Positions 29,390-34,311 of a stretch of 64,000 bases of DNA are shown piece after piece. Position numbers and translations under genes: made by a program. The notes below the pieces were generated by a model. The model saw only the letters and a program-made list of their open reading frames with translations. It ran no database searches and was not told where the DNA came from. Within the stretch, counting starts at the first letter, position 1, and each line of letters begins with the position of its first letter. The stretch comes from Candidatus Obscuribacterales bacterium (lineage in GTDB: Bacteria > Cyanobacteriota > Vampirovibrionia > Obscuribacterales > Obscuribacteraceae): contig JAGVKB010000113.1 of NCBI GenBank assembly GCA_020050835.1, positions 1 through 64,000 of the forward strand, in the 5' to 3' direction.

Positions 29390-31522
29390 CTAACGCGACT
29401 TGTTCGGTTTCTTGTTTAAGCGCCTGAGAGCTGATGCCACTTTGGAGTCGGACGGGAAGTGTTCAGCAGCCAATCTCAAGCTGTTCAAGGCGCTTTCGAA
29501 ATCCTTGGTTTTTTCCTGGGCGGCGGCGATCATCAGCCAATCGTCCGCAGAAACGTCTTTTGCCGCAATGCACTTTTGAAGATACTCCAGCGACTCATTC
29601 CACTTGCTTTCGCGAAAGAGCAGTTTGCCTGTCAAGCAAAAGGCTCTTGTGTTGCTCTTATCCAGTGCGATCACTTGGCGGCACTCTTCCATACTGGCGT
29701 CATGCTTACCTTTCTTGAAGAGCACTTCAGCCAGCAGCAGGTGTGCTATCGCACTGGCTGGTGCCGCTGCGACCGATGCCTCAGCCAGTGTGACGGCCTT
29801 AGCTGTGTCATTATGTGCCAGCGCGAGCCTGGTGAGCCCGGCTAGCGCTCGGTCGTTATGGTCTTCTAGTTTCAGCGCAGCCTGATAGGTGGCGGCGGCG
29901 CTGTCCAGGTCTCCCTTCATCTCTTGAGCGTAAGCTAACTCGCAACGTAGAGCAGAATTGGTCTGGTTGCGGGCGATTACTTCCTTCAGCAACAAGATTG
30001 CGCCGTCATAGTTGCCCTGCATGGCGAGCGCTCCGGCTTGAATTCGTTTGGATTGCGGGTTGGTTGGTGCCAGCTGGAGCGCCTGTTGGGCTAACTTTGC
30101 TGCTTCCTTCGGCTCGCCGAAATCGAGCCTAGCGGCCGCCAGCTCGTTGATAATGAAAACATTATAGGGCTCTTCAGACAGCGCTTCTTTGAGTTGTGAC
30201 AAACAGTCTGCTTGCTCGCCGCGCGCTTTTGCCACTCTGGCCAGCGCAATCCTGGCGATTGCCGGTACGTCCTTCTTGGTAAGCGCAGCCCGAGCTTGTG
30301 ATTCAGCCAGTTTCAATTCTCCGCTGGCGCTGTTGACCAGCGCTGACAATGCCAGGGCATCGCTCGAGTCGGGACTCTCCAGCTTGACCTTTTCAATCAA
30401 TTCACGAGCTTCAGTAAGCTTGTCGGTCTTGAGATAGAGTGTGGCGAGATTGAGTTTGGCAGGCAAATGGTCGGGATGGACGGCTAAAGCGTTGTGGAAC
30501 GCTTCATCGGCAGAATTGAAGCGACCGAGCTCAGTCAAAAGCAATCCGTAAGCATTATTGAGCTCTGAATCCAACGGCTCAATCTTAAGCGCTGTCTCGA
30601 AATCCTCTCTGGCTTCGCGCAGGTCGCCGCTGGCGAATTCGCACCAACCTTTCATGAATAGCGCTTGCGGATTGCTCGGGGAGAGCTGGAGCCATTTATC
30701 AGCACAATCTTTCGCGCTGGCCCAGTCTTTGCGGGCACCGTATAAGGTGGCGAGGTGTTGCAGCGAGCTGCGATCTTTTGGATTGAGTCGAAGCGCTTCC
30801 TGAAAGGCGGCAATCGCCTGGTTGGCATCTCCTTCGCGTTCGTAGAGTGTGCCTAACTGGAAGCGCAAACGCGGATCATCGGGAGAAGCCTTGATGGCGG
30901 CGCAGCATTCTTCAATCGCCTTTTCCATCAAGCCGATCATGCTCAGTCGTTGCGAGAGCTCCTGCCTCGCTTTGGCATTGCCGGGAGCGAGTTTGACGGC
31001 GCGAGCGAACTCCGTAATCGAGTCATCCTCGCCACCAGATTTGGCGCGTACCTGAGCCAACTTGAAATGATAACGAAACTGAGAAGGATCGAGTCCGACC
31101 GCCTTCTCCAGCTCGAAGCGAGCTTCCGAAAGCCGGTTGAGCGCCAGATAGGCAACACCGAGTTGGTAATTTGCCGGAGCGTAATGCGGACCAAGCTCGC
31201 AGGCTTTCTTAAGCTCGACCAAGGATTCTTCGGCCTGGTTGTCCAGCAGCTTGAGTCGCCCGATACCCAGATGCGGGCGGGGATCTGCCGGTGCTTGGTT
31301 CGCTGCGAATTGGAGAATCTTGAGCGCTCGTGCGTTGTCTCCTTGCCGGACTGCATTTTGAGCGTCAGCCAGGAGCTTGTCGACCGAATGATTGCAAACA
31401 GAACAAGGAGGCTCCGGATTAGCCCGGTTCTCGCCAACACCGTTAGCCTGTGCGGCCGCCAAGCCCGGAAGACCGGTGGTCATCAGCAGCACAATGATCC
31501 CTGAATTGATTAGGTTGCTCAC
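29390..31522 (-). CDS. Secreted protein with many TPR repeats
   Basis: About 710 residues from a GTG at 31522, chosen because it gives a signal peptide (SNLINSGIIVLLMTTGLPGLAAAQ) and does not run into mqnA; the frame is open to 31630. A CSVC motif is near the mature N-terminus. The rest is a long series of 34-residue TPRs (for example PADPRPHLGIGRLKLLDNQAEESL, DPSQFRYHFKLAQVRAKSGGED, NPKDRSSLQHLATLYGARKDW), about 18 or more. Likely a periplasmic or outer-membrane scaffold. It is 44 bases after mqnA, possibly in the same transcript. Confidence 0.85.
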   Translation of the reverse strand: MSNLINSGIIVLLMTTGLPGLAAAQANGVGENRANPEPPCSVCNHSVDKLLADAQNAVRQGDNARALKILQFAANQAPADPRPHLGIGRLKLLDNQAEESLVELKKACELGPHYAPANYQLGVAYLALNRLSEARFELEKAVGLDPSQFRYHFKLAQVRAKSGGEDDSITEFARAVKLAPGNAKARQELSQRLSMIGLMEKAIEECCAAIKASPDDPRLRFQLGTLYEREGDANQAIAAFQEALRLNPKDRSSLQHLATLYGARKDWASAKDCADKWLQLSPSNPQALFMKGWCEFASGDLREAREDFETALKIEPLDSELNNAYGLLLTELGRFNSADEAFHNALAVHPDHLPAKLNLATLYLKTDKLTEARELIEKVKLESPDSSDALALSALVNSASGELKLAESQARAALTKKDVPAIARIALARVAKARGEQADCLSQLKEALSEEPYNVFIINELAAARLDFGEPKEAAKLAQQALQLAPTNPQSKRIQAGALAMQGNYDGAILLLKEVIARNQTNSALRCELAYAQEMKGDLDSAAATYQAALKLEDHNDRALAGLTRLALAHNDTAKAVTLAEASVAAAPASAIAHLLLAEVLFKKGKHDASMEECRQVIALDKSNTRAFCLTGKLLFRESKWNESLEYLQKCIAAKDVSADDWLMIAAAQEKTKDFESALNSLRLAAEHFPSDSKVASALRRLNKKPNKSR

Positions 31523-31565
31523 TGACCAAAGTTTAACAGGCCGCTCAGCGAAAGAGAGAGCACAC

Positions 31566-32420
31566 TTACTTCTTTGGGGCAGCCAGTAAACCATGGTGCT
31601 GGCAAAGTTCGCGAAACAGCTGCAAACCATCGTGATGCTTCTGAGTCAGCTGAAAGTTCAATTCTGCTTGATAGTAGCGTTGCAATCTAGATTGCGGAAG
31701 CGCTGTGCGATTAGTCGCCTCGTTAACTACAAGTGGTAGCAAACTGTTCAGTCCATAATCTCTGGCGCTTCTCAAGGCCGCTGCCACAGCCTGGAATTGT
31801 TGCTGATTGCGAGCTGCCCAGTCGTTGCGAGCAGCCCACAGTCCAAAAACCATCGGCAGACCGGTTTGAATTCGCCACCACTGGCCGAGGTCGGCTCGCC
31901 AGTATTTGTTAGCCCAATCGCCGTCGAATGCCAGCGCCCGGTCACCGATTAAAAGCGCTCCGGCTGTCTTCGGGTTGTCTAGGCTCGGCTCGTTTTCAAT
32001 CACTATTTCCGGTCTGACATTGAGCTGCTCGAGCAAGAGGACTCTCAAAAGATTGACTGACGTTGCTGAAGAGGCTGGTGCGGCAATTCTGGCGCCATTC
32101 AGCTTGTGCGGAGCAACCCTACTGAAGAACAGCACACTGCCAACCGGTCCGTCCGATGAGATTGACAGATCTGTGATTAACTCCAGACCGGACCTTTCCA
32201 GATAGTAAAATGAGCTCATCGCACCGAGATCGAGATTGCCGCCCGAGTAAGCTTTGTTCAGCTCGGCAGGGCTGGCGTAATAAGTTTGCGCGGGCAGCTC
32301 GACCTGCCCCTTCTCAATTGGTAGCACTACCGGCAGGCAATTGATAAAGGAGATCTGTCCAAGCCGCGGTAGCGGTCCAGACAGTACCGAATTAGTTGTG
32401 ACATTGGACAGAAGCGGCAT
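31566..32420 (-). CDS. mqnA: Chorismate dehydratase MqnA (futalosine menaquinone pathway)
   Basis: A 284-residue periplasmic-binding-fold enzyme. The N-terminal LGQISFINCLPVVLPIE is the MqnA signature; SPAELNKAYSGGNLDLGAMSSFYY, SSDGPVGSVLFFSR, AAPASSATSVNLLRVLL and LLIGDRAL follow in family order. MqnA converts chorismate to 3-enolpyruvyl-benzoate, the first step of the futalosine route to menaquinone, so the organism probably respires with menaquinone. Other mqn genes are not in the window. Confidence 0.93.
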   Translation of the reverse strand: MPLLSNVTTNSVLSGPLPRLGQISFINCLPVVLPIEKGQVELPAQTYYASPAELNKAYSGGNLDLGAMSSFYYLERSGLELITDLSISSDGPVGSVLFFSRVAPHKLNGARIAAPASSATSVNLLRVLLLEQLNVRPEIVIENEPSLDNPKTAGALLIGDRALAFDGDWANKYWRADLGQWWRIQTGLPMVFGLWAARNDWAARNQQQFQAVAAALRSARDYGLNSLLPLVVNEATNRTALPQSRLQRYYQAELNFQLTQKHHDGLQLFRELCQHHGLLAAPKK

Positions 32421-32790
32421 TACCTGCAGGTCTCCAGGTAGTCAAGTGAATGTACAAGCATACACCACGGAGCTAAGTCGGCCAGGTGAAAGGATTCTCA
32501 TCAAAGCCGAACAAGCCGTTACCGCCGGTTCGCCTGCGACCATAGCTCTACTCAACGACCGTCAAAATCTTACAGCTTTCCAAGCCGGTGGCTCGTTTTG
32601 ACCTAAGCGGTCGCGTCGAATTGATTCATTTCTTCACTAGGTGTGCGCGCTTATTGCCGAGAAGTTAAGTTTATCTGCGCGGAAAGCGATCTGCTCTTTT
32701 AGACTGCCCATCAAAAGAACTGCCTTCACGGCCAACGGCTGATTGCTAAAGGAGCATGGATTAAGGCTTCTTGGCGCTTGCGTCAATTCC

Positions 32791-32825
32791 AAAAAATTGC
32801 CGGTTGAGCTCTGCTCAGCCGGCAA
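32791..32825 (-). terminator. Intrinsic terminator of the predicted small RNA
   Basis: On the minus strand a 13-base-pair stem (arms 32825-32813 and 32809-32797; one position is a G-U pair) with the 3-base loop AGA is followed at once by six U residues (32796-32791). This is a textbook rho-independent terminator. It works only for minus-strand transcripts: on the plus strand the hairpin is followed by CAGTTGCA. Confidence 0.8.
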
Positions 32826-32891
32826 CAGTTGCAATAGTAAAAGGGAGGAGACCAAAAGTTTTTGGTACGTTAAAGTGGCCTCGCTCCCTCT
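32791..32891 (-). ncRNA. Predicted small RNA, about 100 nt, with own promoter and terminator
   Basis: A minus-strand unit with promoter 32899-32926 and terminator 32791-32825 encloses about 100 bases without a meaningful reading frame. The 5' part can fold: GGGAG (32888-32884) pairs with CUCCC (32847-32843), and inside it ACCAAAA and UUUUGGU (32866-32860 and 32857-32851) form a second stem. The segment UCUCCUCCC (32851-32843) is complementary to Shine-Dalgarno sequences and would be a natural seed if exposed. It lies between mqnA and the pyrimidine-nucleoside phosphorylase gene. I do not recognise 6S, SRP, tmRNA, RNase P or Yfr1; a regulatory RNA is the best guess. Confidence 0.65.
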
Positions 32892-32898
32892 GAGTCCA

Positions 32899-32926
32899 TT
32901 AATACAAACAGCGTCTTCATTGTCAA
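32899..32926 (-). promoter_or_regulatory. Promoter of the predicted small RNA
   Basis: Perfect TTGACA (32926-32921), 16-base spacer, TATTAA (32904-32899) on the minus strand. The start point is expected near 32892. This is the best -35 match among the intergenic promoters I noted, and no minus-strand protein gene follows before the terminator. Confidence 0.7.
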
Positions 32927-33000
32927 GTGGTTTTGCCAAGCAACGGACCAATTTTAAGGATGTACAATTTCAAGACCTAAGGCGCAGTAGGAGATGCAAC

Positions 33001-34311
33001 GTGCGAATGGTTGATTTGATCCTCGCGAAACGCTCTGGCAAAGCGCATTCACGCCAGGAGATTGATTTCATCATTGACGGAGTCATGAGTAACTCCATTA
33101 GCGACTATCAGCTGGCCGCCTGGTTGATGGCTGTCTGCTGGCAGGGCATGACTCTGGCGGAGACAACTGATCTGACCGATGCGATGACGCACTCAGGGAA
33201 GGTTCTGGACTTATCGGAGATCGGTCCGGTCGTCGCTGATAAACACAGCACCGGCGGCGTCGGTGATAAGACCACCCTGGTCTTTGCGCCGATGCTCAGC
33301 GCCGCCGGCATTCCGATGGCGAAGCTTTCGGGGCGCGGTTTGGGACATACCGGTGGCACACTCGACAAGCTCGAGGCTATTCCAGGCTTCCGCGTCGACC
33401 TGAGCACGGAGAGTTTCGTCAAGCAGGTCAGAGAAGTCGGAGCGGCGATCGGCGGGCAAACGGCGGAACTCGCTCCTGCTGACGGCAAGATTTATGCAAT
33501 GCGCGATGTAACTGCGACAGTCGACTCTTTACCGTTGATCGTGGCTTCAATCTTGTCTAAGAAATTCGCTGCCGGATCAAACTTGATCATTTTGGATGTT
33601 AAATGCGGCCGCGGCGCAATCATGGAATCTGATGAACGAGCGCTCGAGCTGGCTAAAATGCTGTCTGCAGTCGGTGAGCGCTTGAATAAGCCGGTGACCG
33701 CCGTTGTAACTCATATGGAGCAACCACTCGGGTTTGCCGTGGGACACGCCCTGGAAGTGGCGGAAGCAGTAGAGACCTTGAGCGGCGGCGGGCCAGAAGA
33801 TCTGCGCGAGCTCTGCTTCAGTTTAGGCTCACTGGCGCTGGTTAAGGCTGGGAAGTATCAAAGCGAAGACAGCGCCAGAGAAGCGCTCAATCAGGTGATC
33901 GAAAGCGGGGCAGCGCTCGAGCAGTTTCGCCGGATTATCAAAGCTCAAGGCGGCGACCCCCGCATCGTCGAGCAGCCCGAGCTGATGCCGCAGGCACGCA
34001 TTCGCCATCCGATCGCGGTGCCCGGTCAAGGCAAGCAATGGATAGAGCATATCGATGGCCGGGAAGTGGCCGAAGCTTGCAAATTGATGGGTGCGGCCAG
34101 AGCAGGCAAGGGCGATAGCATTAATCTGGCGGTTGGTGTCGTGCTGAAAGGCAAGATTGGCTGGGAATTTGAAGCTGGACAGACGGTGGCCGAAGTGCAC
34201 GCCGATAGCCAGCGCGATTGCCAGGCTGCCGTGGCAAAGTTGGAGCAAGCGATTACGTACAGTCGCACGCCGGTGGCGAAGCCTGACGTGATTAGAGCGC
34301 GCGTCGGTTAA
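33001..34311 (+). CDS. Pyrimidine-nucleoside/thymidine phosphorylase
   Basis: About 437 residues from the GTG at 33001 (an ATG lies two codons later), with TAGGAG 7 bases upstream. The frame is open to 32743, but that part is not family-like and overlaps the small-RNA unit. Motifs: MVDLILAKRSG, the phosphate-binding VADKHSTGGVGDKTTL, SGRGLGHTGGTLDKLEAIPGF, YAMRDVTATVDSLPLI, and the C-terminal biotinyl-like domain. It splits pyrimidine nucleosides with phosphate to base and (deoxy)ribose 1-phosphate. PdP or DeoA type cannot be separated by eye. Confidence 0.93.
   Translation: MRMVDLILAKRSGKAHSRQEIDFIIDGVMSNSISDYQLAAWLMAVCWQGMTLAETTDLTDAMTHSGKVLDLSEIGPVVADKHSTGGVGDKTTLVFAPMLSAAGIPMAKLSGRGLGHTGGTLDKLEAIPGFRVDLSTESFVKQVREVGAAIGGQTAELAPADGKIYAMRDVTATVDSLPLIVASILSKKFAAGSNLIILDVKCGRGAIMESDERALELAKMLSAVGERLNKPVTAVVTHMEQPLGFAVGHALEVAEAVETLSGGGPEDLRELCFSLGSLALVKAGKYQSEDSAREALNQVIESGAALEQFRRIIKAQGGDPRIVEQPELMPQARIRHPIAVPGQGKQWIEHIDGREVAEACKLMGAARAGKGDSINLAVGVVLKGKIGWEFEAGQTVAEVHADSQRDCQAAVAKLEQAITYSRTPVAKPDVIRARVG

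Follow-up and report, generated by a model that had tools for sequence, protein, structure and literature searches.

UpsM is a small RNA of the Rhodobacteraceae derived from the 5′ UTR of the dcw cluster; it lies within one 268-nt 5′ UTR, and functions both as a leader and as a trans-acting sRNA have been proposed for it (PMC5089854). The cyanobacterial sRNA Yfr1, 54-69 nt long, consists of a 5′ stem-loop, a linker and a 3′ terminator hairpin, and its hallmark is an unpaired, ultraconserved ACUCCUCACAC, its loops being unconserved (PMC2190773). A further class of comparable elements comprises transcription attenuators and riboswitch leaders that contain intrinsic terminators; in these, a hairpin and a U-tract lie near the promoter and upstream of a biosynthetic gene. 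Searches of the open-licence literature found no relevant paper on regulatory RNAs in the lineage studied here or on mqnA leaders.

Here, a stretch of 64,000 nucleotides (the window) from a member of the Obscuribacteraceae was analysed. On its minus strand, between mqnA (futalosine-pathway menaquinone biosynthesis; 31566..32420, minus strand; Pfam PF02621, E=8e-55), which is downstream and co-oriented, and the divergent gene for a pyrimidine-nucleoside phosphorylase (33007..34311, plus strand; Pfam PF00591/PF02885/PF07831), lies a candidate RNA gene made up of a promoter, a hairpin (H1) and a terminator hairpin (T2). With moderate confidence, we read it as an approximately 100-nt non-coding RNA specific to the Obscuribacteraceae, which would have its own promoter and an independent terminator, make contact through the loop of H1 and act in trans.

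Comparison with described RNAs

Like UpsM, the candidate is a short RNA restricted to one family, with its promoter ahead of a housekeeping operon and its end at a Rho-independent terminator, and it may serve as both leader and trans-acting sRNA. It differs from UpsM in that the downstream gene usually seems to own a promoter, and in gene and phylum. Yfr1, whose host lineage is sister to the Melainabacteria, has a comparable succession of parts, its 5′ stem-loop (one bulge is possible in Yfr1) being followed by linker and terminator, but against the 54-69 nt of Yfr1 the RNA measures approximately 83-105 nt in the genomes bearing T2. The conserved unpaired sequence is here found in the loop, unlike in Yfr1, and CUCC is located within a variable helix arm. 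Neither ACUCCUCACAC nor ACTCCTCACAC occurs anywhere in the assembly of the window's genome, and with the motif absent an identity with Yfr1 was rejected. As in attenuators and riboswitch leaders, the hairpin and U-tract are promoter-proximal and precede a biosynthetic gene; in contrast to these, no antiterminator structure, no separate aptamer and no Rfam match were found.

The covariance models of Rfam 15 gave no match at gathering threshold in the window and nine homologous loci, and permissive searches returned chance-level scores only, the best being 14.8 bits where 60 would be required. The sequence-only reading, which could not assign the RNA to a known family, is thus upheld against Rfam 15.

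Distribution in the Obscuribacteraceae

A DNA search of relatives detected H1 at the corresponding position in two further genera (E=2.8e-11 and 0.0015), and a pattern search found the RNA in nine genomes. These searches were followed by the covariance model R1 and then by R2, built from 37 sequences. With R2, one significant copy was detected in 40 of the 50 genomes of the window's own family, representing 18 genera; one genome of the family had an extra match at chance level (E=0.49). None of the three genomes from the other family of the order carried the RNA, and in a sample of 292 genomes from the phylum the window's genome was the sole match at E<=0.01. A search of the class with R1 gave noise-level matches only outside the family, and the best of these, L066, was without both neighbour genes. 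The relatives that bear names are mostly Obscuribacterales or Melainabacteria MAGs.

Ten genomes of the family had no match. Six of them (G001, G002, G003, G005, G020 and G024) possess mqnA without the RNA beside it; in the remaining four, whose assemblies are 64-83% complete, mqnA was not found (three genomes) or found only in part (one genome). In a tree of MqnA and the phosphorylase, midpoint-rooted and with weak deep support, the six RNA-less genomes group into two clades that lie apart from each other among genera with the RNA. This suggests that the RNA is ancestral and was then lost in some lineages.

Promoter and transcription start

The −35 element TTGACA (32921..32926, minus strand) and the −10 element TATTAA (32899..32904, minus strand; 4/6 identical to TATAAT), with a 16-nt spacer, can be read directly from the DNA, exactly as first described. 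In all 40 homologues TTGAC is present 28-32 nt 5′ of the helix, as expected if the promoter is conserved in relatives, and a −10-like hexamer, e.g. TGCATAAT or TGGATAAT, is found at the matching place between TTGAC and the helix with near-constant spacing. The window promoter was not called by a generic sigma-70 scanner, because the scanner demands a T at the last −10 position. Judged by these predicted promoter elements, the RNA would be transcribed from a sigma-70-type promoter of its own. The start region expected from the −10 position (32891..32898, minus strand) is directly 5′ of the helix, and the distance of TTGAC and the −10-like hexamer from the helix places the predicted 5′ end within a few bases of H1.

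Hairpin H1

H1 (32888-32843, minus strand) consists of 11 pairs with a single bulged base. Its 5′ arm GGGAG(C)GAGGCC (32877..32888), in which C32883 is bulged, pairs with the 3′ arm GGUCUCCUCCC (32843..32853) around a loop of 23 nt (32854..32876) with the conserved core UACCA (UACYA among homologues). On its 3′ side follows a U-rich stretch (32831..32842), a weak U-tract in the window genome with a score of 2.25. The region 32898-32791 folds at −41.7 kcal/mol (z = −5.1), and none of 200 shuffles folded as low, but without the terminator (32898-32817) the z was only −1.4. Thermodynamics alone is thus no proof of the upstream helix, and the proof is supplied by conservation. The low z of the helix without T2, and generic matches in the surrounding 6 kb that were about as many as in shuffles, would fit motifs resembling a promoter and a terminator that lie together by chance. 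This explanation, to which we give practically no weight, is refuted by conservation and covariation across 40 genomes and 18 genera.

Among the 35 distinct sequences, 91.7% of the cells were paired (80.7 in shuffles), 40 cells were changed on both sides (8.5 in shuffles) and the covariation score was 0.294, compared with 0.125 in shuffles and 0.160 in the best slid version. Genus g23 has GGGACCC(C/U)GGCC...GGCCGGGUCCC instead of GGGAG(C)GAGGCC...GGUCUCCUCCC, the middle of the stem having been swapped with compensation. The conservation of the stem pairs that the sequence-only reading had proposed to look for in relatives is accordingly found, with covariation, in 40 genomes. Alternatively, the inverted repeat, which follows closely on a strong promoter, might be bound by a transcription factor as a DNA operator, and an operator would be symmetric. 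In all 40 genomes, however, the best pairing had an extra 1-2 bases on the 5′ arm and symmetric repeats were found in 0/40, a count from a fit that let extra bases fall on the 5′ arm only and with which the reading of the arms by eye agrees. Furthermore, G-U pairs and compensatory changes lie inside the arms, and conservation of the loop is confined to one strand. The one-sided bulge and the covariation make an operator very improbable.

The loop measures approximately 22-28 nt among relatives and varies by single bases. In the UACYA core one A is invariant and the neighbouring U, C and A are kept at 86-91% by weight; outside the core the loop differs from genus to genus, a pattern untypical of a base-pairing seed, which counts against an independent sRNA. 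The 5′ hairpin would nevertheless act as a functional module, and because the helix is kept as structure and the loop as sequence, the loop is most likely the site of contact with a target RNA or protein. Action in trans is the most likely mode. A pseudoknot between CCAA of the loop and a UUGG further downstream could be made out by eye in some genomes, but was inconsistent and was discarded.

A C-rich segment complementary to ribosome-binding sites had been pointed out in the RNA. The segment, UCUCCUCCC, is present at 32851-32843 within the 3′ arm of H1, but a pairing role for it is unsupported. It is base-paired as a helix arm, and this arm is replaced with compensation in genera g23, g13, g11, g5 and g10, so that an anti-Shine-Dalgarno seed was rejected and the expected conservation of the segment is not found. 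Within the same genome, the loop gave no pairing signal with the start region of mqnA (mean z +0.30) or with the 5′ region of the phosphorylase gene, pdp (mean z +0.21).

The changes in loop length by single bases argue against a coding frame, and the ORFs across the RNA region had no Pfam match, in agreement with the original remark that no sensible protein frame is present. The longest frame of the phosphorylase starts at a TTG at 32743 and would run antisense through the whole RNA (32743-33006, plus strand). Conservation supports a phosphorylase start at 33007 or just upstream, and a gene caller may mis-annotate the RNA region as coding.

Terminators

T2 (32797..32826, minus strand; fold of −18 to −20 kcal/mol), a strong intrinsic terminator, is followed by a T6 tract (32791..32796, minus strand) at which the 3′ end of the RNA is expected. 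It had been described as a 13-pair hairpin followed by six U; the six U are there, and 13 pairs appear in the fold. In the stem, a single C.A mismatch is flanked by 12 canonical pairs, with a G.U in addition. By a fixed rule applied to the 80 nt after H1, an intrinsic terminator was detected in 11/40 genomes (shuffles: mean 0.9, maximum 4), and by inspection a terminator lies within approximately 25 nt of H1 in 12 genomes from 5 genera, the window's included. The terminator stems are unrelated in sequence between genera. A clear T2 is not evident in the other 28 RNA-bearing genomes, which speaks against an independent sRNA. The proposed sRNA gene with promoter and terminator is supported by the conservation of its promoter and stem across 40 genomes and of terminator function in 12.

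In most genomes a U-rich tract is located 3′ of H1. Its score exceeds 4 directly after H1 in G019, G008 and three g7 genomes and is weak in the others, and the idea of H1 as a universal terminator was dropped. T2 is absent where the U-tract directly after H1 is best, a trend compatible with termination at either site but weak, since members of one genus do not count as independent observations.

Relation to mqnA

The RNA, a single copy, was located in the mqnA region in 40/40 genomes; in 39 it immediately precedes mqnA in the same orientation. This constant company counts against an independent sRNA. The RNA might instead be a cis-acting 5′ leader of mqnA, its promoter being the mqnA promoter and the hairpin with its U-tract, or T2, an attenuator which would stop most transcripts in the absence of a ligand or protein bound to the loop; the short terminated RNA could then arise as a by-product or, as with UpsM, represent an sRNA derived from the leader. 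We regard this as a serious but less probable possibility. It is favoured by the association with mqnA, kept even where the phosphorylase is displaced (G011) and with two inserted genes in the sole exception, by the U-rich tract after H1 in most genomes, and by the conserved loop, which fits ligand or protein recognition. Against it, H1 and T2 showed a pairing probability of 0.00 in the 12 T2-bearing genomes and thus no antiterminator pairing, although other switch designs are possible; the element was not found before any other gene; 20/26 long-gap genomes have a probable mqnA −10 element of its own further downstream; and G008 retains the RNA despite two TadE/TadG-like genes, so labelled by eye, between it and mqnA (L100 4624-6247, minus strand).

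In G011, a DUF2252-like gene (by eye; L101 6392-7891, minus strand) is located between the phosphorylase and the RNA, starting approximately 30 nt from the RNA on the opposite strand. The 3′ end of mqnA overlaps the longest-frame start of a TPR-repeat gene (29390-31630; overlap at 31566-31630 of the window, minus strand), and a TPR-like gene is also found 3′ of mqnA in G011, which suggests an mqnA-TPR operon.

The spacing between the RNA and mqnA divides the genomes. Downstream of the RNA in the window, TGTATGCT (32457..32464, minus strand), recurring in relatives, is the probable extended −10 element of a separate mqnA promoter. The pattern TG(N)YATNCT was found at this place in 20 of the 26 genomes with gaps >80 nt, in nine genera, against 1.15 expected from shuffles, a ratio that overstates the significance since the pattern was chosen after inspection of the data, which also weakens it as an argument for an independent sRNA. 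It occurred in 0/13 genomes with shorter gaps. In these 13 compact genomes the hairpin lies only 24-66 nt before mqnA, and neither T2 nor a separate mqnA promoter is seen, so that the RNA promoter probably reads into mqnA; they speak for a leader and against an independent sRNA. We read the mqnA promoter as separate in the long-gap genomes and the transcript as shared with the RNA in the compact ones.

Since mqnA usually has its own extended −10 element, the RNA is in the window most likely an independent sRNA of approximately 100 nt, which would end at its intrinsic terminator before the probable mqnA promoter is reached. The stand-alone, trans-acting regulator of the sequence-only reading is by the same token likely in the window, while the compact genomes resemble an mqnA 5′ leader. 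Both arrangements may be true, in different genera. A reading that joins them links the loop to menaquinone synthesis by the futalosine pathway, as a minimal element sensing a ligand or protein; the promoter-proximal hairpin would act as an attenuator in compact genomes, and elsewhere as a free trans-acting RNA whose terminator is its own and from which the mqnA promoter has become separated. We consider it unlikely. If true, a leader-to-sRNA series, or the reverse, would be visible within one family.

The locus adds a structured RNA family, supported by covariation and absent from Rfam, to the non-photosynthetic sister lineage of the Cyanobacteria, a lineage without a described small RNA in the open-licence literature searched. 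The existence of two gene arrangements makes it useful for studying how leaders and free sRNAs convert into one another, and its constant link to mqnA makes a control of menaquinone synthesis a testable idea.
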